DNA of 64,000 nt from Bacteroidaceae bacterium. GTDB taxonomy: Bacteria > Bacteroidota > Bacteroidia > Bacteroidales > Bacteroidaceae. The stretch spans positions 1 to 64,000 of the forward strand of contig JAKSIV010000007.1 in NCBI GenBank assembly GCA_024398635.1. The letters are read 5' to 3'. How positions within the stretch are numbered: position 1 is the stretch's first letter; each line of letters begins with the position of its first letter. Made by a program: the position numbers and the translations under genes. This document shows, piece by piece, positions 10,471 through 24,381 of the stretch. The notes under the pieces are model-generated. The model saw only the letters and a program-made list of their open reading frames with translations, did not search any database and was not told where the DNA came from.

Positions 10471-11916
10471 ATGAATGCAGAACTCAAAGAGCTTTTCGGC
10501 CGGTATGCAGGGGCCGATGCACAGTCTGTGACCCGCCTCACCGCGGCAGGTTCCAACCGTGTCTATTACCGTCTGAGTGCATCGGATGGTAAAACCGTTG
10601 TAGGGGTAGAGGGTACCAATCCTGATGAGAACAGGGCGTTCCTGGTCATTGGCCGTCATCTGCGTGCCGCAGGTCTGCCTGTTCCTGAGATCCTTGCCGT
10701 TACAGATTCCGGTATGTGCTACCTGCTGCAGGACCTGGGTGACGAGTCTTTGTTCGGACTGTCGGAGAGCGCCCGTGACTGTGGGACCTACAGTGCGGAG
10801 CAGACCGCCTTGCTTGAAAAGGTGATGCGTCTGTTGCCTGACCTTCAGTTCAAGGGAGGTGACGGGCTGGATTACAGCGTCTGCTTTCCGTGTGAATCAT
10901 TTGACCGACGCAGCATATTCTGGGACCTGAACTATTTCAAGTACTCGTTCCTCAAGGCAACAGGGCTTGAGTTTCATGAGGCCAAGTTGGAGGATGATTT
11001 TGAACGTCTGTCAGCGGTATTGTTGGCCGATGCCCCTTACAATACATTCATGTACCGTGACTTCCAGGCACGCAACGTGATGGTAAAGGACGCAGAGCCC
11101 TGGTTCATAGATTTCCAGGGAGGCCGTCGCGGACCGGTGGAGTATGATGTGGCATCGTTCCTGTGGCAGGCCCGTGCCGCTTACCCCGCTTCGTTGCGTG
11201 AACATCTTATAGATACATATATTGACTCTCTTGCCCGATACCGTAAAGTTGATTCCACAGCATTCCGTAAGGGGCTTATGCATTTTGTGCTGTTCCGTAC
11301 ACTTCAGGTGCTGGGCGCATACGGATTCCGTGGCTATTTTGAGCGCAAGCAGCATTTCATAGAGAGCATTCCTGCTGCCATCGGTAACCTGAATGACCTG
11401 TTGAATGCGGGAGTAGGTGCTAAAGAGTATCCCTATCTGATTCAGGTGCTCAGTGATATGGTCAGGTTGCCGCAGTTTGCACCTGTATCTGTTCCGGCTG
11501 ACGGTAAACTTACCGTACGTGTAATGAGTTTCAGTTACCGCAAGGGCGGCATCCCTGAGGATAACAGCGGCAACGGAGGCGGATTTGTATTTGACTGCCG
11601 TGCCATGCATAATCCCGGCAAGTATGACCAGTACAAGAAGATTACCGGGGCCGATGCACCCGTGATTGAGTTCCTGGAGAGCCAGGGTGAGGTGCAGCAT
11701 TATCTGGACAATGTCTACGGACTGGTTGATCCGGCGGTTGACAAATATATCGGACGCGGATTCCTGAACCTGATGGTGGCATTCGGCTGTACGGGCGGCC
11801 AGCACCGCTCGCTCTATTGCGCCAACCATCTGGCCGGGCACCTCAAAGAGAAATACGGTGACAGGATACATATCGTCCTTGAGCACCGTGAACAGAAAAA
11901 ACGCATCGAGCTATGA
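10471..11916 (+). CDS. AmgK-like sugar kinase (APH fold) fused to a RapZ C-terminal domain
   Basis: 481 residues from the ATG at 10471. Residues about 1-325 form an aminoglycoside-phosphotransferase fold: GSNRVYYRLSASDGKTVVGV near the N terminus, the catalytic loop YRDFQARNVM (Asp and Asn kept, the usual His is Tyr), and WFIDFQGGRRGPVEYDVAS for the metal site. Residues about 345-481 match the C-terminal half of RapZ (MSFSYRKGGIPEDNSGNGGG, FGCTGGQHRSLYCA, LEHREQKKR). In E. coli that half binds GlcN-6-P and small RNA. The P-loop half of RapZ is absent. The next gene is MurU-like with an ATGA overlap, so the kinase half probably makes MurNAc or GlcNAc 1-phosphate for recycling. Confidence 0.85.
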   Translation: MNAELKELFGRYAGADAQSVTRLTAAGSNRVYYRLSASDGKTVVGVEGTNPDENRAFLVIGRHLRAAGLPVPEILAVTDSGMCYLLQDLGDESLFGLSESARDCGTYSAEQTALLEKVMRLLPDLQFKGGDGLDYSVCFPCESFDRRSIFWDLNYFKYSFLKATGLEFHEAKLEDDFERLSAVLLADAPYNTFMYRDFQARNVMVKDAEPWFIDFQGGRRGPVEYDVASFLWQARAAYPASLREHLIDTYIDSLARYRKVDSTAFRKGLMHFVLFRTLQVLGAYGFRGYFERKQHFIESIPAAIGNLNDLLNAGVGAKEYPYLIQVLSDMVRLPQFAPVSVPADGKLTVRVMSFSYRKGGIPEDNSGNGGGFVFDCRAMHNPGKYDQYKKITGADAPVIEFLESQGEVQHYLDNVYGLVDPAVDKYIGRGFLNLMVAFGCTGGQHRSLYCANHLAGHLKEKYGDRIHIVLEHREQKKRIEL

Positions 11917-12656
11917 ATGCGCTGATTCTTGCGGCAGGACTGGGAACGCGGCTTGGAGACCTTACATCGGACCGCCCCAAGGCACTTGTGGAGGTTCTCG
12001 GTAAGACAATGCTGGAGCATCAGCTGCGTCATCTTTCAGCGGCAGGATTTGACCGTTTCGTAATAAACATACACCACTTTGCACCCAAGGTAAAGGCTTT
12101 CCTTGGGGAGCACGGGAACTTTGGGCTGGACATCCGTCTGTCCGATGAGAGTGACCTTCTGCTGGATACCGGAGGAGGCATTCGCAAGGCCATGCGGCTG
12201 TTCGGTAATGACCAGCCTGTGATGGTGCATAATGTGGACATTTTCTCCAGTGTGGATCTGAACTCTTTGTACCGTGGCCATATTGAAAGCGGTGCAGACT
12301 CAACTCTGTTGGTGGCTCAGCGTTCCACATCACGTTACCTCTATTTTGATGCTGAGGGCTTGCTACGCGGCTGGAGTAACGAGAAGACCGGACAGGTGCG
12401 TTCCCCGTATCCGGGATTTGACAAGACGCAGTATTCACCATGTGCTTTCCAGGGTATTCATGTCCTGTCGCCGGCCTTATTGCCGTTCCTTGATGAAATT
12501 GCTGAGCAACACTTTTCAATAACAGACTTCTATGTGGACAACGCAGCCCGTCTCAGACTGCGTTCGGTTGTATCGGACGCAAAGGAGTGGGTCGATGCCG
12601 GCAAGCCCGATGCTTTGGAGCGCGCCGCACAGATAATCAAGGCATATTATGAATAA
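11913..12656 (+). CDS. murU: MurU-like sugar-1-phosphate nucleotidyltransferase
   Basis: 247 residues. The N terminus has the nucleotidyltransferase signature MNALILAAGLGTRLGDLTSD followed by RPKALVEVLGKTMLEHQL, and a metal-site Asp in HNVDIFSSVD. In Pseudomonas, MurU joins MurNAc alpha-1-phosphate and UTP to give UDP-MurNAc, bypassing de novo synthesis. The preceding gene encodes the matching AmgK-type kinase and the two overlap by 4 nt. A mannose-1-phosphate or similar specificity cannot be excluded from sequence alone. It overlaps the AlkD-like gene by 8 nt. Confidence 0.8.
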   Translation: MNALILAAGLGTRLGDLTSDRPKALVEVLGKTMLEHQLRHLSAAGFDRFVINIHHFAPKVKAFLGEHGNFGLDIRLSDESDLLLDTGGGIRKAMRLFGNDQPVMVHNVDIFSSVDLNSLYRGHIESGADSTLLVAQRSTSRYLYFDAEGLLRGWSNEKTGQVRSPYPGFDKTQYSPCAFQGIHVLSPALLPFLDEIAEQHFSITDFYVDNAARLRLRSVVSDAKEWVDAGKPDALERAAQIIKAYYE

Positions 12657-13353: not shown

Positions 13354-15501
13354 TCAATAGAATCGTCCCAGAGTAGTACCTGGATAGTAGTGCAGCAGGA
13401 TTTCGCGATAGGTATAGCCTTTGGCTGCCATTACCGCAGCTCCTATTTGGCACAGACCTACGCCATGACCCCAACCGGCTCCCTTCAGTACGAATCCGTC
13501 CTGAGTTTTTTCCACTACGAACGCACTGCTGAACAGATGGCTCTCTGAGAGTGTACGGCGAATTTCCAGTTCCTTGCCTATGGTAACGGTCTGTTTTGTA
13601 CCCTCAATCTCCAGTTCATAGATGCGGCCCGAAGGACCTCGCTTGACGGGACGAATGTCAACGATATCCCCGATATCCAGGCCCGATTTTCGGCGGAATA
13701 TGTCCGATACCTGAGCGGTGGTATATTCAACCGTCCAGCGGTAATAGTCCGGGGTCTCCAAATCATACCCGTTAAGTGATTCGGAGAGAATATTGCCATC
13801 GGCCGAATTACAGAATGACTTGGGCTCGGAAAGGATCCACTCGCGTGCATTCTCTTCAATGCTGAGGTCGGGCAGGGCGCCTTCGTTGATGCTGCTGTCC
13901 CGCAACGCCACCAGGTAGGGCTTGTGCTCATCCTGCCAGCAGGTCTCGAACTGCTCGGTCACGCCGCCGCAGCACTTGCTGAAACGGGCGTCGCACAGAT
14001 GGCCTTCATGTACCAGAGTCTGTCCGAACGTCTCCTTGACGGCGGTCTCGGCTGCGGCGCTGATTATGCGGGTACGGCCCTGGTAACGTTGGCAGTGGTC
14101 ATCGGCACATACATCAAACAGGGTGTGCTGGTCATGATCATACCACTTTATGATGCGGTTCAGGATATGGTCATTGGTTACGGGTGTAGTGACATCGGCC
14201 TTATGATAGGGGGAACGGAGTTGTGCCAATACCCAGCTGCGTGATATCACGGCGTGGGCCTTGAGGAACTCCTTGGTGGCGGTGGGTTTCATCTCCGATG
14301 AGATTACGCTGGTAAGGTAATCCTCAACCGGCAGTATGTTTATGGCGCGTACCAGCCCGTTCTCTACAATGAACTTAAGCTGGCCTGAGAATGTCTGCTC
14401 CTCGTTACGCTCCCAGTGGAATCCTATTCCAATGGTGACGTCATGCAGCGTGAAGGTGCTGCCGTGCTCGCTGGGCTTGAGCGTAAGACTGTCAATCAGT
14501 ATGCCGTTCCAGTTCAGTTTGCCGCCGGTGGCGCTGATTATCATCTCACCTTCATAGACGGCGCGTCCGTCGGTAAAGCTGTCGTTCAGGCAGAACCTGA
14601 TCTCCTTTGCAGCCATTATTCCCACCCTGATCTTGGGTTGCTGCTGGGTTACCTGACGGTATATGTCGAGTACCTGTTTCTCGGTCAGGCTTTCAAAATC
14701 CTCCTTGCGCGGAGTGATTACAAGACCGAACATGTCAATACCTCCGGGACTTACCAGAATCTTGCCCTCCTCTGCGTAATAGCAGTCGGGACGGTGTTTG
14801 CTGCGCGGAATGACAGCGGTTATGACCTGACCGTCACGGTTGAATGATAGTACGTTCATGCGCGGCTCGTACTCGCCGTCATAGATGGTCATTGAAGATA
14901 TGTAATCCCACAGTTTTTGGGGGTCGGAGCCCTTTATGACCGTGACGGGGAATCCAAACGGCTGTATGGTAACGGGCTCGTCTTTCTGCGGCGGCTCGTT
15001 CTCACGCAGTTTGTCCACCAGGGGAATACCTTGGGAGCGGCCAATCTGCATGTGCAGATGGTCCGGGGCCGATGCTCCGCTGCGGGGACCGTTGTAGAAT
15101 ATCATGTATCCGGGCTCCAGCTGCTGTGCAATCCGGAGCATCTTCTCGTAGCAGTCCATGAACTTCTGGGGCCGGTGCGTGCGGCTTACCACACAGAAAT
15201 GCTCATGCAGTATGGGATAGGGGTTGAGCAACAGGTCAAATCCGTCGCCTGCGTCAAAGGTAATCTGCTCCGTGGGGCGGTTCTCGTTGCAGAGAAAACA
15301 GCTGCGGACAGCGGTCTCGGCCGGTTTTACCTTTGCTGTCGTGGATATGATACGGGCGGGGTTGTGCTGCAGTGCCAGACCTGAAGATGAGAGTACACGG
15401 GTCTGTACCTGCTCCAGATTGTCAAAAGCCTGTCTGGCGGCGGGCCATGTTGCCAACTGCTGCTCAAGGCACTGGCCAAGGTGCTTGAATATCTCTTCCA
15501 T
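13354..15501 (-). CDS. DUF4922 (HIT-like) domain fused to a SpoIID/LytB domain
   Basis: 715 residues from the ATG at 15501. The N-terminal part (to about 310) is DUF4922, a GDP-galactose-phosphorylase/HIT-like fold. It has a C-x2-C pair (SCFLCNENRP) and the histidine triad-like SAPDHLHMQIG at about residue 150. The C-terminal part (about 370-715) is SpoIID/LytB: SSEMKPTATKEFLKAHAVIS, then GAGWGHGVGLCQIGAAVMAA and LLHYYPGTTL. SpoIID cleaves denuded peptidoglycan glycan strands. There is no signal peptide, which is odd for a wall enzyme. It is coupled to the glycosyltransferase gene by a TGATG overlap. The pairing is known in Bacteroidetes but its role is not. Confidence 0.82.
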   Translation of the reverse strand: MEEIFKHLGQCLEQQLATWPAARQAFDNLEQVQTRVLSSSGLALQHNPARIISTTAKVKPAETAVRSCFLCNENRPTEQITFDAGDGFDLLLNPYPILHEHFCVVSRTHRPQKFMDCYEKMLRIAQQLEPGYMIFYNGPRSGASAPDHLHMQIGRSQGIPLVDKLRENEPPQKDEPVTIQPFGFPVTVIKGSDPQKLWDYISSMTIYDGEYEPRMNVLSFNRDGQVITAVIPRSKHRPDCYYAEEGKILVSPGGIDMFGLVITPRKEDFESLTEKQVLDIYRQVTQQQPKIRVGIMAAKEIRFCLNDSFTDGRAVYEGEMIISATGGKLNWNGILIDSLTLKPSEHGSTFTLHDVTIGIGFHWERNEEQTFSGQLKFIVENGLVRAINILPVEDYLTSVISSEMKPTATKEFLKAHAVISRSWVLAQLRSPYHKADVTTPVTNDHILNRIIKWYDHDQHTLFDVCADDHCQRYQGRTRIISAAAETAVKETFGQTLVHEGHLCDARFSKCCGGVTEQFETCWQDEHKPYLVALRDSSINEGALPDLSIEENAREWILSEPKSFCNSADGNILSESLNGYDLETPDYYRWTVEYTTAQVSDIFRRKSGLDIGDIVDIRPVKRGPSGRIYELEIEGTKQTVTIGKELEIRRTLSESHLFSSAFVVEKTQDGFVLKGAGWGHGVGLCQIGAAVMAAKGYTYREILLHYYPGTTLGRFY

Positions 15502-16838
15502 CAATTGTTGCGGTTAGTATTGATACGCCTCTGCAACTCAGCTGTGCGGAGGGAGTCCTTGTAAAGATTGTTTGCGTTGACCTTCTCGGCGCTCAGGGCG
15601 GCGTCGCTGTTGCCTTCCCAGCGGCGGCACAGGTAGAGCTCGTCAAAGATACGGCCCAGACGGTACTCTCCGGCAATACGTATGGCAACGGCATAGTCCT
15701 CACCGTAGCTTACGTTGGGGAATCCTATCTTACGTACCACAGGTGTGTAGAACGCACGTGGGGCGCCCAGACCATTTATACGCAGGGCGTTGTTGGGGCC
15801 GTTTTCATCGGTCCACTCCTTATGGCCTATTATGCCGGGAGGCAGGGTCTCAAGGTCAAAGTTACACATGCGGTAGCTGCCAATGACCATGGAGTATCCG
15901 CCCTCGCGGAATTTGTCAACAATTTTCTGTAATGTGTTGGGACTGCTGTAAAGGTCGTCACTGTCCAGTTGGATTGCAAAACGGCCGCAGCGGCTGTCGT
16001 TTATTGCCAGGTTCCAGCATCCGCCTATGCCCAGGTCAGTACGCTCGGGTATGATGTGCACCAGACGCTTGTCTGATTTGACAAGATCGGCCAGGATGGC
16101 GGTGGTTCTGTCAGTAGAGTGGTTGTCAACCACAATGACGTTGTAGGTGCCGTCCAACTTCTGGTTTAATGCAGACTTTACGGCATCGGCAACGGTGCGT
16201 TCGCGGTTGCGGACAGGTATTATGACCGACGCCAGCACCGGGAAACTGCCCTCGTCAACATTTATTGAAAGACCTGCTCCGGGCTTGACGTATCCGTCTA
16301 TCAGTTTCAGGTGCTCGGTGCATACTGCCTCCATCTCTATCTGGACATCGCGGTTACGCGGGTTCACGTAGTCAAACTGTTTCTGGCCCGATGTACGGAA
16401 ATCTGTCTCTGCAATCGTGTACAGAGGCTGGGGTATACGGACAATGGGCAGGCTGCGTTGAATTGCCAGACGCATCTGATAGAAACCTGCGCTCTTGAAT
16501 CCGGCGCCTTCAAACGCCAGATATGTGTCAATGGCTGCTGGCGTAATGAGCACCAGGGCTCCAAAGTCAAAGTCATCCCTCAGGCTACCGCTCTGGATGT
16601 CTATGAGCGGGGCGGGGACTGTGGCATCGGCCCCCATCGTCTTGACGTAATCCGAGTAGACCATGCCGGCACCAGTGGCGTCGGCGAACTGTTTCATGCG
16701 CTCTGCGGCCTCATCGGTCATTGTGACTTCCCGGCCGCTTATGTTAAGCAATATGTGCTGGTTACGGCAGGCGTTGAGAGTGTCCTTTACGTATTGTGTG
16801 GAACTGCCGTATTGTGGTAAATCAATAGTCTGTATCAT
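15501..16838 (-). CDS. Family 2 glycosyltransferase with an extra N-terminal half
   Basis: 445 residues. A GT-A family 2 domain starts at about residue 205 ([46 protein letters not shown] with the metal-binding Asp residues). The first 200 residues resemble a weakened second GT-A unit that lacks a clear nucleotide-sugar motif. No membrane segment is seen, so it should be cytosolic. It is first in a two-gene operon with the DUF4922-SpoIID protein, which suggests a role with envelope glycan, acceptor unknown. A -7 box TATCTTCG lies 7 nt before the ATG, so the leader is very short. Confidence 0.82.
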
Positions 16839-19182: not shown

Positions 19183-20274
19183 ATGAGTGAAAGGATAATT
19201 GTAGGCATCACCCAGGGTGATGTGAATGGCATAGGATACGAGGTTATACTCAAGACTTTCGAGGACCCGACCATGTTCGAGTTCTGTACACCTGTAGTGT
19301 ATGGCTCGCCCAAAGTTATGACATACCACCGTAAGGCAATTGATTCACCGACAAACTTCAACGTGGTGGACAGTGCAGCCGATGCACAGCCGGATCGTCT
19401 GAATGTGGTCAACTGCAATCAGGAGGATGTCAAGGTGGATTTCGGAATACCCACCGAGGAGAGCGGTCAGGCAGCATTCCAGGCTCTGGAACGTGCCGTC
19501 AGTGAGTATCGTGACGGTAAGATTGACGTGCTGGTGACAGCCCCCATCAACAAGAAGACAATCCATTCGGATGCTTTTCATTTTCCCGGACACACCGAAT
19601 ATATCGAGGCTCAACTGGGCGAGGGTAACAAGGCGCTTATGATTCTCATGAACAGCTCCATGAGAGTGGCTCTTGCAACCGTTCATGAACCTATATCCAA
19701 GGTGGCTTCACTCCTGAGCAAGGACCTTATAAAGGAGAAACTCCGCATACTTTACAAATCACTCAAGCAGGATTTCGGAATAGAGATACCGCGTATAGCT
19801 GTTCTTGCCCTTAACCCTCATGCCAGTGATGACGGCCTGATAGGTAAGGAAGAGAATGAGATTATCAAGCCTGCCATTGACGAGATTGTGGCCGATAAGA
19901 TACAGTGTTTCGGTCCGTTCTCCGCAGACGGATTCTTTGGCAGCGGCGAGTACCGTAAGTTTGACGCGGTGCTGGCTATGTATCATGACCAGGGTCTCAT
20001 CCCGCTCAAGGCGCTTGATATGGAGTGCGGTGTGAACTTTACTGCAGGATTGCCTGTGGTCCGCACATCGCCGGATCATGGTACAGCATATGATATCGCA
20101 GGCCAGGGCCTGGCCAGTGAGGAGTCAATGCGCCAGGCTATATTTGCAGCTGTTGACATCTATCGCTCACGTCAGAACGAGGAGGAGATACATGCCAATC
20201 CTCTTAAGAAACTTTACTTTGACCGTCGCGATGACAGCGACAAGCTCAAGCATCTGCCTACAGAGAAAGAGTAA
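19183..20274 (+). CDS. pdxA: 4-hydroxythreonine-4-phosphate dehydrogenase
   Basis: 363 residues. PdxA oxidises 4-phosphohydroxy-L-threonine in the vitamin B6 pathway using NAD. Seen here: the N-terminal IVGITQGDVNGIGYEVILKT, the metal-binding His in FHFPGHTEYIE, LNPHASDDGLIGKEE, and AMYHDQGLIPLKAL with another metal His. It is slightly longer than the roughly 330-residue E. coli protein. It precedes the headgroup-type genes by 14 nt. PdxA homologues sometimes act on other phospho-hydroxy acids, so a link to the downstream genes is possible but unproven. Confidence 0.95.
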   Translation: MSERIIVGITQGDVNGIGYEVILKTFEDPTMFEFCTPVVYGSPKVMTYHRKAIDSPTNFNVVDSAADAQPDRLNVVNCNQEDVKVDFGIPTEESGQAAFQALERAVSEYRDGKIDVLVTAPINKKTIHSDAFHFPGHTEYIEAQLGEGNKALMILMNSSMRVALATVHEPISKVASLLSKDLIKEKLRILYKSLKQDFGIEIPRIAVLALNPHASDDGLIGKEENEIIKPAIDEIVADKIQCFGPFSADGFFGSGEYRKFDAVLAMYHDQGLIPLKALDMECGVNFTAGLPVVRTSPDHGTAYDIAGQGLASEESMRQAIFAAVDIYRSRQNEEEIHANPLKKLYFDRRDDSDKLKHLPTEKE

Positions 20275-20288
20275 TCCCATTTGAGAGA

Positions 20289-20981
20289 ATGCGTTTTGGC
20301 ATCATATCAGCAGGTGAAGGCAGCCGTCTGGCATCCGAAGGATTCAGTCAGCCCAAACCGCTGGTGCCTATCTGTGGCGTTCCCATGATTGAACGTCTGG
20401 CCCGCATTATGATGGATTGCGGTGCCGAGCGTATTGCCGTAATTGTTAACGGTGAGAACCCTGAGACCGTAAATCTGCTTGAAAGGTTGGCCGTTGAGCT
20501 GCCGATGGACCTTGTGGTCAGAAAGACACCTTCGCCCATGCACAGCCTGATGGAGCTTGTACCTTATCTGGACAGTGACCGGTTTTGCGTGACCACGGTC
20601 GATACCGTCTTTTCGGAGAGCCGTTTCCGTCTTATGATGGATGAGTTCTCAAAGACCCAGTTGGACGGTCTCATGGGTGTTACTTCACTCATAGATGATG
20701 AGAAACCCCTCTATGTGGATGCGGATGCTGATATGATGATAAGGGGTTTCCATGACACACAGGATGGCTGCAGGTTTGTATCGGCCGGCATCTATGCTCT
20801 CAAGGCCGATGCGCTCAAGGTGCTTGAAGGTTGCATTGGCAGCAATCAGACCAGGATGCGTTATTTCCAGCGTCAGCTGCTTGAGTCGGGAATGCGTCTT
20901 AAGGCTTTTGATATGGGACAGGTGGTCGATGTGGACCATGTAAGTGATGTGCATCGGGCACAGGAGATTGCAAAGCTATGA
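20289..20981 (+). CDS. Nucleotidyltransferase (NTP-transferase fold)
   Basis: 230 residues. The GT-A-like nucleotidyltransferase signature is at the N terminus: GIISAGEGSRLASEG then SQPKPLVPICGVPMIERL. A likely metal-site Asp lies in VTTVDTVFSE. Such enzymes activate sugar phosphates, inositol phosphate or phosphocholine as NDP derivatives. The gene overlaps the ATP-grasp gene by 4 nt, with a CDP-alcohol phosphatidyltransferase two genes on. That suggests it makes a CDP-linked alcohol or polyol; the substrate is unknown. Confidence 0.8.
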   Translation: MRFGIISAGEGSRLASEGFSQPKPLVPICGVPMIERLARIMMDCGAERIAVIVNGENPETVNLLERLAVELPMDLVVRKTPSPMHSLMELVPYLDSDRFCVTTVDTVFSESRFRLMMDEFSKTQLDGLMGVTSLIDDEKPLYVDADADMMIRGFHDTQDGCRFVSAGIYALKADALKVLEGCIGSNQTRMRYFQRQLLESGMRLKAFDMGQVVDVDHVSDVHRAQEIAKL

Positions 20982-21799
20982 GGTACCTTGGGATAAGTCG
21001 TGATGAGTTGTATTCGCCCAATCGTGTAGGGGGCGATACTGCCGTATTCCGTGCCGTTGCAGCTGAGCTGGAACGTTGCGGGAACGATGTGGCCTGCATG
21101 ACCGAGCAGGAACTCGCGGCAAAAGGCATACCCTTGGGCATTGACGGCATATTCCAAATGGCAAGGAGCCGTGAGGCGCTGGCCGTTCTTGAGAAGGCCG
21201 ATGTTCCCGTAACCAATACAGCCCAGGCTGTGATGAACTGCAGCCGTGCCCGTGAGACGGCTTTGCTCCGTGACTCGGGGCTTATTCCGGAAAGCCTGAT
21301 TTGCAAAACCGTCGGTGTACCTTTTGATTGGAATATCTTTCCATGCTGGATTAAGCGTGCCGACAGCCATGCTGTTGACCGCGATGACGTGCAGTTCGTC
21401 CAGGATGCCGGAGAGTGCAATTCCGCCATGCTGGGATTCTCCGAACGAGGAATGAAGGAGTGTGTCCTGCAGGCTCATGTCAGGGGTTGGCTGGTCAAGT
21501 TCTACGGAGTCCGTGGTTATGGACTTGCCGATTGTTATGCCGCATCGGCCAGGGATGGCAAGTTCGGTCTGGAGCGTTATAACGACCAGCCCGGTCAGGC
21601 CAGCGTCGATATGGAAGCGTTGACGGCGGCAGCTGAGCGTGTATCGGCCCTATTGGGGGTTGATGTGTACGGAGGCGATGCCGTGGTGGGAGATGACGGA
21701 AAGATTACGATAATAGATTTCAATGACTGGCCCAGTTTTCGTACCTGCACTGTCGGTGCGGCATCTAAGATTGCGCAGCTGATAATAAACAAAAGATGA
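20978..21799 (+). CDS. ATP-grasp-like protein
   Basis: 273 residues. The fold is suggested by GVDVYGGDAVVGDDGKITII followed by DFNDWPSFRTC near the C terminus, which resembles the D...E/N metal site of RimK-type ATP-grasp ligases, and by LICKTVGVPFDWNIFPCWIK ahead of it. The first 80 residues form a pre-ATP-grasp-like domain. ATP-grasp enzymes join a carboxylate to an amine or thiol, or phosphorylate polyols. The substrate is unknown. It overlaps both neighbours by 4 nt. The final DFND contains Asn where many members have Glu-x-Asn, so activity is not certain. Confidence 0.7.
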   Translation: MRYLGISRDELYSPNRVGGDTAVFRAVAAELERCGNDVACMTEQELAAKGIPLGIDGIFQMARSREALAVLEKADVPVTNTAQAVMNCSRARETALLRDSGLIPESLICKTVGVPFDWNIFPCWIKRADSHAVDRDDVQFVQDAGECNSAMLGFSERGMKECVLQAHVRGWLVKFYGVRGYGLADCYAASARDGKFGLERYNDQPGQASVDMEALTAAAERVSALLGVDVYGGDAVVGDDGKITIIDFNDWPSFRTCTVGAASKIAQLIINKR

Positions 21800-22719
21800 C
21801 AGAGAAGAATAAAAGAGCGGTTGAGGCGACTTTCAAATCGAAAGATACCGAAGAGTGGCTGGATATCTGGTTTACACGTCCCATCGGATTGCTGTTTGCC
21901 AAGGCATTCGGTGCCTTTGGAATACATCCCAACGTGATTACGGTCATATCCATATTCCTGGGCGCGTTTGCCGGTTTCTGCTGGTGGCACACCACCATGG
22001 ACTGGACAATCCTTGGTATACTGATGCTCATGGTGGCCAATTTCCTGGATAGTGCCGATGGACAGCTGGCCCGAATGACCGGCAAGAAGACTCTGTGGGG
22101 TCGTCTGCTTGACGGATTTGCCGGCGATGTGTGGTTCTTCTTCATCTATGTGTTCATAGCATGGAGACTCACTTTTGAACTGATACCTTTGGGTAATGGC
22201 CGGTTCTGGGGTATCTGGATCTGGATAATCATGCTGGTAAGTATGTTTTTCCATTCCCGTCAGGCGGGTCTGGCCGATTATTACCGTAACATATATCTGC
22301 TGTTCCACGGTGACCATTCAGAACTCAATGACAGCCGTGAGCTTACGGCCGAACAGAAATCGACCCCGTGGCGTGAGCGTTGGTTCTGGAAGATATGGTT
22401 ATTCTTCTATCAGAATTATACCCGCAGTCAGGAGGGCATGACGCCGCGGTTCCAGAAGTTCCGTGAGGCTGTGCGTGCCAAACATGGCGATACCATTCCT
22501 TCAGAGTTGGGTGCCGAGTTCTGCCGTCGTACATATCATATCCTTAAATGGACCAATATATCCACTTTCAATACGCGTGCTATCGTGCTCTATATCTCCC
22601 TGCTCGTGGGTATGCCGTGGGTATACTTTGTGTTTGAGATTGTGATAATGAACATCATATTCCTCTATATGAAAGGCTCACACGAACGTGTGTGCCGTGA
22701 CATGACGGACAAGATATGA
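21796..22719 (+). CDS. CDP-alcohol phosphatidyltransferase family protein
   Basis: 307 residues, with several membrane helices. The family motif starts at about residue 89: D-x2-DG-x2-AR-x8-G-x3-D, here LDSADGQLARMTG and WGRLLDGFAGD. The last Asp lies five residues after the previous one rather than the usual four. Enzymes of this family move a phospho-alcohol between CDP and an acceptor, making phosphatidylinositol phosphate, phosphatidylglycerol phosphate or similar lipids. The central hydrophilic part (about 175-245) is long for the family. It overlaps the genes on both sides by 4 nt. Confidence 0.85.
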   Translation: MTEKNKRAVEATFKSKDTEEWLDIWFTRPIGLLFAKAFGAFGIHPNVITVISIFLGAFAGFCWWHTTMDWTILGILMLMVANFLDSADGQLARMTGKKTLWGRLLDGFAGDVWFFFIYVFIAWRLTFELIPLGNGRFWGIWIWIIMLVSMFFHSRQAGLADYYRNIYLLFHGDHSELNDSRELTAEQKSTPWRERWFWKIWLFFYQNYTRSQEGMTPRFQKFREAVRAKHGDTIPSELGAEFCRRTYHILKWTNISTFNTRAIVLYISLLVGMPWVYFVFEIVIMNIIFLYMKGSHERVCRDMTDKI

Positions 22720-23723
22720 AAGGACGCTGGCGTACCATATTCTTTATTTTCGGTCTGGCGGCAGTCGTATTGATGCTGCTTACCTTTGATGCGGATTGGA
22801 ACCGTGTCAAGGAGGTTCTGTCGGAGGCTGGAATATGGTTTCCTGTCATAGTCGTGCTTTGGGGGTTCATTTACCTTATGAACGCCTGTTCGTTCGGACT
22901 CATCATAAATGACGGTACCGGCAAGAGAGTGCCGTTCGGTAAGGTGTTCCAGCTAACCGTTTCGGGGTATGCTTTGAACTATGTCACACCGCTTGGCCTT
23001 ATGGGCGGCGAGCCTTACCGTATCCTGGAACTTCAGGGATATGTGGGCGGCAAGAAAGCGACATCGGCCGTGATACTCTACTCCATGATGCATATCTGCT
23101 CCCATTTCTGTTTCTGGCTATCGGCTGTAGTGCTCTATGTGGTGCTTCATTTCTTGGCCGATGGTTACGGACTGGACGTCTGGATGTGCATTATGCTGGG
23201 CGTGATGACGCTGGTGTTTGTAGCGGTACTCTGGATATTCTCACTGGGTTACAGGAAAGGATTCGTTGTAAAGGTGTTCGGCCTTTTGAGCTGTATTCCG
23301 CTGGTAAAGAAGTGGACTGCCGGTTTTCTGGAGAAGCATCGTGCCGATCTGGAGGAGATGGATGCCCAGATAGCGTTCCTTCACACTCAGCGTCGTGCAC
23401 CATTCTGGTGGTCACTACTGCTTGAGTACGCTGCCCGAGTGGTATCATGCCTTGAGTATTGGCTCCTGATAGGCATGTTTATGCCCGGATTCACCTTCTG
23501 GGACAGCATATTGGTGATGGCCTTCTCGTCACTGTTCAGCAACCTGATATTCTTCTCACCAATGCAGATGGGAGGCTTTGAAGGCGGTATGGCTCTTGCT
23601 GCGGGAGGCGTTCAGGTGCCCGGCGCATACGGACTCTACACCGCACTTGTGGCCCGCCTGCGCCAGGTGGTCTGGACTGTGATTGGTGTTCTGATTATGA
23701 AAATTGGTCGCAAGGATGATTAA
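22716..23723 (+). CDS. Lysylphosphatidylglycerol-synthase-type membrane protein (UPF0104 / YbhN-like)
   Basis: 335 residues with about eight hydrophobic segments. The family pattern includes LTVSGYALNYVTPLGLMGGE near residue 90 and SNLIFFSPMQMGGFEGGMAL near 275, both matching the LPG_synthase_TM domain. The C-terminal aminoacyl-transferase domain of MprF is absent. Stand-alone members are thought to be flippases or transferase partners in the inner membrane. The setting, straight after a CDP-alcohol transferase, suggests that it moves the new lipid across the membrane. This is inference. Confidence 0.8.
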   Translation: MKGRWRTIFFIFGLAAVVLMLLTFDADWNRVKEVLSEAGIWFPVIVVLWGFIYLMNACSFGLIINDGTGKRVPFGKVFQLTVSGYALNYVTPLGLMGGEPYRILELQGYVGGKKATSAVILYSMMHICSHFCFWLSAVVLYVVLHFLADGYGLDVWMCIMLGVMTLVFVAVLWIFSLGYRKGFVVKVFGLLSCIPLVKKWTAGFLEKHRADLEEMDAQIAFLHTQRRAPFWWSLLLEYAARVVSCLEYWLLIGMFMPGFTFWDSILVMAFSSLFSNLIFFSPMQMGGFEGGMALAAGGVQVPGAYGLYTALVARLRQVVWTVIGVLIMKIGRKDD

Positions 23724-24381
23724 GGGAATACTCATAGATTTTGGCGGAACCATAGACTCTAACGGCATCCACTGGTTTGATCAATTCCGTGATGCCTACG
23801 CCCTTGTGGCCGATGTCCCCGAGCCTCTGCTTTGGGATGCCTACGTCCACACCGAGCGCACCCTGGGCCGCAACCCCATTATCGGCCCCGATTATACATT
23901 CTGCAAAACCCTGCAGACCAAGATTGCCCTGCAGACAGAATACCTTCAGTCCAATGGGGTAACCATAACCGCCCAGGATACCATCCTTGATACATGCTAC
24001 AACAAGGTAATAAAACATATCTCCACCGTCTCCAAACCCGTCCTGGAAAGAATACATCTCCCCATGGTGCTTGTAACCAATTTCTACGGCAACATGCACA
24101 CCGTCCTGCAGGAATTCAGCCTTGACCACCTGTTCAAGGACGTGATTGAATCGGCAGTAGTAGGAGTCCGTAAACCAGATCCCCAGATCTTCCGCTTGGG
24201 AGTAAAAGCTCTTGGCCTGGAACCATCGGAGACAGTAATGATAGGTGACAGCCTGGAAAAGGACATCCTCCCCGCCCAATCCATAGGCTGCCAAACAGTC
24301 TGGCTTCAAGGAAAAAGCAGATCCGAAGTGCCGTGCACCCCGGACCTGACTGTAACTTCACTGGCAGAAATAATTCTGTGA
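23716..24381 (+). CDS. HAD-superfamily hydrolase
   Basis: 221 residues from the ATG at 23716, which overlaps the upstream gene by 8 nt. HAD motif I is IKGILIDFGGTIDSNG: the nucleophile Asp is kept but the second Asp of DxD is Gly. Motif II is LVTNFYGN and motif III/IV is GVRKPDPQIF with VMIGDSLEKDIL. It is most like the phosphoglycolate/haloacid group. In this operon a phosphatase removing phosphate from a phosphatidyl-alcohol phosphate would fit, but the missing second Asp makes a normal phosphatase reaction less certain. Confidence 0.82.
   Translation: MIKGILIDFGGTIDSNGIHWFDQFRDAYALVADVPEPLLWDAYVHTERTLGRNPIIGPDYTFCKTLQTKIALQTEYLQSNGVTITAQDTILDTCYNKVIKHISTVSKPVLERIHLPMVLVTNFYGNMHTVLQEFSLDHLFKDVIESAVVGVRKPDPQIFRLGVKALGLEPSETVMIGDSLEKDILPAQSIGCQTVWLQGKSRSEVPCTPDLTVTSLAEIIL

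Follow-up and report, generated by a model that had tools for sequence, protein, structure and literature searches.

An ATP-grasp enzyme constantly accompanies the transferases of a putative alternative inositol-lipid cluster in Bacteroidales

Inositol lipids of gut Bacteroidetes influence the capsule, resistance to antimicrobial peptides and fitness in the host (PMC9246714). In Bacteroides thetaiotaomicron, the BT_1522-BT_1526 genes use MIPS and a CDP-alcohol transferase for inositol lipids; this route passes through PIP, employs a phosphatase of the PgpA type and has no NTP transferase or ATP-grasp enzyme. A second gene set, found in Bacteroides vulgatus and Prevotella, encodes an NTP transferase, a CDP-alcohol transferase and a HAD protein in that order, and its functions are termed unconfirmed by the source paper itself (Heaver et al. 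2022, PMC9246714). A lysylphosphatidylglycerol synthase homologue lies near both inositol clusters (PMC9246714). The nearest solved structures are those of Archaeoglobus (AF2299 and IPCT/DIPPS) and Thermotoga maritima (IPCT), in which an NTP transferase makes CDP-inositol and a CDP-alcohol transferase then acts on it; the product of IPCT/DIPPS is a di-inositol phosphate solute. We know of no ATP-grasp partner of the Archaeoglobus and Thermotoga systems, nor of biochemistry for any member of the alternative cluster. In Caulobacter, the headgroup of ceramide diphosphoglycerate is supplied by CpgD, an IPCT-like cytidylyltransferase acting on phosphoglycerate (PMC12275187). Neither MIPS, nor an ATP-grasp enzyme, nor a transferase of the alternative type is described with CpgD.

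The window analysed here is a 64,000 nt stretch from a Bacteroidaceae bacterium. As an initial annotation had claimed, it contains five co-directional genes on the forward strand, and their overlaps of 4, 4, 4 and 8 nt were confirmed from the sequence. The genes encode an IPCT-like NTP transferase (Pfam NTP_transf_3; 20289..20981), an ATP-grasp enzyme without an assigned family (20978..21799), a CDP-alcohol phosphatidyltransferase (Pfam CDP-OH_P_transf; 21796..22719), an LPG_synthase_TM (UPF0104) membrane protein (Pfam PF03706; 22716..23723) and a HAD hydrolase predicted to be a phosphatase (Pfam Hydrolase/HAD_2; 23716..24381). The start of the HAD gene was taken as the ATG at 23716; an alternative TTG start lies at 23704. 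The pdxA gene (19183..20274, forward strand) ends 14 nt before the NTP transferase gene.

Among the 80 closest loci, the exact order pdxA-NTP-ATPgrasp-CDP-LPG-HAD was found in 36, and 19 otherwise complete loci kept this order minus the LPG gene, which is thus optional in the cluster. In 6 loci the order ran on into MIPS, and the remainder were mostly contig-end truncations or minor variants. Because the order recurs among these loci, the arrangement is not a matter of chance. The five-gene order is retained in Bacteroidales, and genes that stay together across these genomes support the proposal of a single conserved pathway for activating a phospho-alcohol and joining it to lipid. A further suggestion, that pdxA supplies a phospho-hydroxy acid for the headgroup, had to be abandoned because rlmN-DUF4837-pdxA is a separate housekeeping block. 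This block was present without the cluster in two genomes, and the cluster was located away from pdxA in three others; pdxA is a positional neighbour outside the pathway.

By its domain content, its gene order and the linkage to MIPS in relatives, we assign the cluster to the 'putative alternative inositol lipid cluster' described in gut Bacteroidetes. It has the same order of NTP transferase, CDP-alcohol transferase and HAD genes, and the published cluster likewise has an LPG synthase homologue in the vicinity and MIPS either nearby or, in P. copri, elsewhere in the genome (PMC9246714). The initial annotation had taken the genes for an unknown pathway distinct from the inositol cluster, which is at odds with this match. 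Its observation that no inositol-phosphate synthase is present holds for the neighbourhood only, as MIPS (PF01658 and PF07994) is encoded unlinked in the same genome (G000:C12:58010). In seven loci of relatives MIPS lies directly downstream of the HAD gene. The set of PAP2 IPC synthase, PIPS, GtrA and PgpA with MIPS was not found in the window cluster. PgpA of the BT_1525 type was not found in the window genome either, so the B. thetaiotaomicron route looks absent. Both cluster types were present in one locus of another genome.

Comparison of the two transferases with solved structures placed both near inositol enzymes. The NTP transferase gave a weak NCBIfam match to the IPCT/DIPPS model; its best single-sequence match in the PDB was the T. 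maritima IPCT (4jd0), nearly over the full length, and IPCTs were among its closest structures. The active-site residues of IPCT are R16, K26 and D112 (PMC12275187). The corresponding R13, K23 and D105 were invariant in 28/28 sequences, with the same spacing of Arg and Lys; the enzyme thus has the active-site Arg, Lys and Asp of IPCT, residues which alone do not fix the substrate. For the CDP-alcohol transferase, the nearest structures by both sequence and fold were AF2299, IPCT-DIPPS and PIP synthases. Its motif D85xxDGxxAR...G102xxxD106xxxxD111 was invariant (40/40), and the Pfam match was above the cut-off. All motif residues are present, with the last Asp one position beyond the canonical DxxxD (D106-x4-D111) that is found in AF2299.

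The cluster very probably produces lipids of the phosphatidylinositol type by way of CDP-inositol, a judgement that leaves aside the role of the ATP-grasp enzyme. Counting against it are the unlinked position of MIPS in the window genome, the missing second Asp in the HAD protein and the genomes G163, G313 and G376 described below. The headgroup could instead come from another phospho-alcohol or phospho-acid, such as phosphoglycerate (through CDP-glycerate, as with CpgD) or a hydroxy acid derived from pdxA. CpgD provides a precedent for an IPCT-like enzyme feeding a lipid headgroup with a different substrate (PMC12275187), and MIPS is lacking in 5 genomes that carry the ATP-grasp gene, among them G313 and G376, where genes for the NTP, ATP-grasp, CDP and HAD proteins are all present. 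However, the transferase of the cluster is nearest to inositol enzymes, and pdxA belongs to a separate block. The link to MIPS is strong in both presence and position, and because of it we rejected another headgroup as the main reading and consider it improbable.

Among 393 Bacteroidales genomes, MIPS was present in 47/52 carriers of the ATP-grasp gene versus 15/341 non-carriers (odds ratio about 200); the compared genomes are related, and the p-value of the co-occurrence therefore overstates their independence. In 38/52 carriers the two genes are no more than 5 kb apart. All MIPS-linked alternative transferases (39/39) were in genomes that carry the ATP-grasp gene. Fusions were also found: ATPgrasp-CDP in one locus, NTP-ATPgrasp in three, and NTP-ATPgrasp-CDP in one, as a single protein of 820 aa. 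The NTP transferase and the lipid transferase thus have the ATP-grasp enzyme as their constant companion. The text of the paper on the alternative cluster is silent on such a gene (PMC9246714). The five-gene order agrees with that of the B. vulgatus cluster, in which the tags BVU_RS13095 (NTP transferase), RS13105 (transferase) and RS13115 (HAD) leave one free tag on each side of the transferase.

Pfam and NCBIfam searches with the ATP-grasp protein gave nothing above threshold. Its ATP-grasp identity, proposed earlier, was nevertheless right: a template-free AlphaFold2 model (pLDDT 94.3) matched ATP-grasp enzymes in Foldseek, with Ddl, ArgX and RimK as neighbours. Because these are ligases and the top chain in a profile search of the PDB, 7drm (3e-7), is also ligase-like, a kinase would not be the first call from the predicted fold alone. 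The same profile matched ITPK chains (1z2n, 1.7e-5; 7pup, 7.6e-5; human ITPK1, about 2e-4) better than RimK (0.045). No strong RimK match was found in the genomes of relatives, therefore no control profile from the clade could be made and the preference for ITPK stands without one. The motif IIDFNDWPSF aligns with DVNVFPSY and DLNYLPSF of ITPKs, which share with the window protein the pattern D-x-N-x-[FWL]-P-[SG]-[FY] and a conserved Lys preceding an aromatic residue (KFY in AtITPK4). The second metal motif was DxN in 32/32 members, as in ITPKs (DVN, DLN, DIN), versus ExN (ELN) in 7drm. The similarity is at profile level only: the cut-off of PF05770 (ITPK) was not reached, with E 0.0012 for the best of 32 members and no match for the window protein, and known ITPK substrates are mostly polyphosphates. 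The profiles of the ATP-grasp and NTP enzymes were unrelated, as expected. On this sequence evidence the enzyme leans to a kinase over an amino-acid ligase, and the chances that it is an inositol or inositol-phosphate kinase appear about evenly balanced.

We infer the following route. MIPS would convert glucose 6-phosphate to 1D-myo-inositol 3-phosphate, the IPCT-like NTP transferase would give CDP-inositol, the CDP-alcohol transferase would move phosphoinositol from CDP-inositol onto diacylglycerol or ceramide, and the LPG_synthase_TM protein might flip the lipid product. MIPS places the phosphate at D-3 of inositol, and phosphatidylinositol is normally linked through D-1. A search for the stereochemistry of PIP synthase found nothing among the papers searched, so the argument from D-3 and D-1 rests on general knowledge. 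Tentatively, we propose that the ATP-grasp enzyme acts as a bacterial kinase of inositol or inositol monophosphate and catalyses an obligatory step of the CDP-inositol route that has been overlooked; with the HAD phosphatase it would relocate the phosphate that MIPS leaves at D-3 to D-1.

Within the same inositol-lipid pathway, two other roles for the enzyme have to be weighed. It might be a ligase that adds an amino acid or another acyl group to the headgroup, with the LPG-type protein exporting the aminoacylated lipid. The 7drm match and the neighbours Ddl, ArgX and RimK fit this role, and in MprF the LPG_synthase_TM domain flips aminoacylated lipids. The ligase role is rather doubtful, however, in view of the ITPK-like DxN and the weak score of RimK; moreover, many clusters keep the ATP-grasp gene without LPG, and its fusion between the NTP and lipid transferases points to a reaction on the soluble headgroup. 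Alternatively, a kinase could serve only for salvage of free inositol from diet or phytate, independently of the MIPS product. The ITPK-like motif would suit this function as well, G313 and G376 carry the gene without MIPS, and in G163 it is retained beside a B. thetaiotaomicron-type cluster without the NTP or alternative transferase genes. An optional gene would be expected to be lost often, yet this one accompanies every MIPS-linked alternative transferase and may be fused between the NTP and lipid transferases; salvage as its only role is unlikely.

The HAD protein was assigned as a ceramide transferase in the published scheme (PMC9246714). We read it as a phosphatase; the published guess is unlikely because the protein is small, belongs to the HAD family and has phosphatases as relatives. 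Residues D9, G11, T13, N123, K154, D179 and D184 were invariant in 27/27 sequences. Motif I, DxGGT, is without the usual second Asp, which was not accepted as proof of inactivity, as a HAD that functions with the first Asp alone has been cited (PMC7614388). The LPG_synthase_TM protein is a possible flippase.

The NTP, CDP-alcohol and HAD gene set was already known as a predicted inositol-lipid cluster, and the extra ATP-grasp enzyme is omitted from the published pathway. This alternative pathway is common in Prevotella, predicted and unproven. A constant and sometimes fused enzyme corrects the pathway as drawn and narrows the candidate reactions to a short list. It also raises a stereochemical question, namely through which position inositol is joined to the lipid. 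If the proposed shift of phosphate by the kinase and the HAD protein is true, a Kennedy-type pathway would yield the same stereoisomer as other phosphatidylinositols.

The NTP transferase (20289-20981), ATP-grasp (20978-21799), CDP-alcohol phosphatidyltransferase (21796-22719), LPG_synthase_TM (LPG, 22716-23723) and HAD (23716-24381) genes were found, as the initial annotation had claimed, to be co-directional on a single strand, with successive overlaps of 4, 4, 4 and 8 nt, the last assuming that HAD starts at the ATG at 23716. The closest relatives of the cluster were in uncultured Bacteroidales, many of ruminant gut origin. The five-gene order, which that annotation had proposed to seek in other genomes, was present in full as pdxA-NTP-ATPgrasp-CDP-LPG-HAD in 36 of the 80 closest loci; 19 of the 80 had the same order without LPG, the member most frequently missing, and in 6 the cluster ran on into inositol-phosphate synthase (MIPS). 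The upstream gene pdxA had been suggested as a possible headgroup supplier. It was found in 11/11 genomes tested, and the rlmN-DUF4837-pdxA or rlmN-pdxA block stayed intact both without the cluster (G083, G129, G332, G043) and where the cluster sits elsewhere (G026, G189, G412), which argues against such a role. A second nucleotidyltransferase, of sugar-phosphate type, lies outside the cluster 8 kb upstream (11913-12656), and a DUF4922 (Ap4A phosphorylase-like) protein fused to a SpoIID domain is encoded on the minus strand at 13354-15504.

The cluster very probably makes an inositol lipid. In a single-sequence search, the best structural match of the NTP transferase was the T. maritima IPCT (4jd0); in a profile search further IPCTs matched, with heptose and sugar enzymes scoring similarly or better. 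NTP residues R13, K23 and D105, which match the active-site Arg, Lys and Asp of IPCT, were invariant in 28/28 sequences. Both sequence searches and the fold of its model (pLDDT 93.4) put AF2299, IPCT-DIPPS and PIP synthases closest to the CDP-alcohol transferase, whose final motif Asp was shifted by one residue (D106-x4-D111) in 40/40 members. In HAD the catalytic motifs were complete apart from the second Asp of motif I, replaced by Gly in 27/27. The initial annotation had set aside an inositol cluster for want of a nearby MIPS; none is indeed near the cluster, but MIPS is encoded elsewhere in the genome (G000:C12:58010) and adjoins the cluster in relatives, directly 3' of HAD in seven loci (L055, L098, L116, L119, L129, L140, L147) and 5' of NTP in L165.

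Among 393 Bacteroidales genomes, the transferase was found in 61, the ATP-grasp gene in 52 and MIPS in 62. MIPS was present in 47/52 ATP-grasp carriers versus 15/341 non-carriers (odds ratio 204); the genomes, one per species, are yet related to each other, so the p-value is indicative only. All transferases within 8 kb of MIPS (39/39) belonged to ATP-grasp carriers, and 38 of the 52 ATP-grasp genes lay within 5 kb of MIPS. Some genomes departed from the usual gene set. Genomes G313 and G376 kept NTP, ATP-grasp, transferase and HAD without MIPS. G163 carried the ATP-grasp gene with a B. theta-type cluster of MIPS, PAP2, PIPS and GtrA (L155:134-4968); PgpA lay away from this cluster, and NTP and the alternative transferase were not found in that genome. 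G337 had a hybrid order (L163:7820-15663) of MIPS, alternative transferase, PAP2, PIPS-type transferase, GtrA, PgpA, ATP-grasp, NTP and pdxA, in which the complete B. theta cassette (PAP2 to PgpA) sits between transferase and ATP-grasp. Eighteen transferase matches were near neither MIPS nor the ATP-grasp gene, some adjoining LPG-type proteins or acyltransferases, and may serve another lipid. At L056:7359-11757 and L169:7315-9988, paralogous transferases unlinked to MIPS or ATP-grasp were linked to an LPG-type protein, acyltransferases, an SDR or an IspD-like cytidylyltransferase, perhaps a second uncharacterised lipid cluster.

For B. vulgatus and Prevotella, an alternative inositol lipid cluster of NTP transferase, CDP-alcohol transferase and HAD has been described in the vicinity of MIPS, with an LPG synthase homologue close by and, in P. 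copri, MIPS unlinked; the proposed route, CDP-inositol to PI-DAG to PI-ceramide, was termed unconfirmed (Heaver et al. 2022, PMC9246714). By the B. vulgatus locus tags, a single gene separates NTP from the transferase and another separates the transferase from HAD, consistent with ATP-grasp and LPG at those places. The text of that paper makes no mention of an ATP-grasp protein, and a 2025 review adds nothing further on it. The window cluster is of an already predicted kind, and its constant ATP-grasp component is previously unrecognised.

Pfam matched four of the five cluster genes, and the second had no Pfam or NCBIfam assignment. Its template-free AlphaFold2 model (32 relatives; mean pLDDT 94.3, pTM 0.90) had D-Ala-D-Ala ligase, ArgX and RimK as structural neighbours and bears out the annotated ATP-grasp enzyme. 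Fusions joined ATP-grasp to the transferase (L084) and to NTP (L123, L161 and L166), and at L172:6937-9396 it formed the central part of a single 820-aa NTP-ATPgrasp-transferase protein; these fusions assign it to the pathway of the adjoining genes. The top PDB match of the ATP-grasp profile was the ligase-like chain 7drm (3.1e-7), which we take to be the peptide macrocyclase PsnB; six inositol-phosphate kinase (ITPK) sequences followed (1.7e-5 to 2.2e-4), and RimK reached only 0.045. The C-terminal IIDFNDWPSF aligned with ITPK DVNVFPSY, DLNYLPSF and DINAFPGY, whereas 7drm has ELNASAMF at that position. A phosphorylated substrate would suit the invariant basic residues R8, R63, R90, K126, H167 and K174, and inositol monophosphates have been reported as substrates of ITPK1 enzymes (PMC7614388). 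The odds that the ATP-grasp protein is some kind of kinase acting on inositol species are about even.

The MIPS product is 1D-inositol 3-phosphate, and phosphatidylinositol is normally linked via D-1; the B. theta route handles this D-3/D-1 problem by a PIP intermediate plus a phosphatase. Were CDP-inositol made directly from this 3-phosphate, the lipid would be the opposite stereoisomer. HAD and ATP-grasp might together relocate the phosphate of the MIPS product, via free inositol or via Ins(1,3)P2. If true, phosphate relocation would account for the retention of all the cluster genes, a pattern to which G313, G376 and G163 are exceptions; we hold this full scheme only tentatively.
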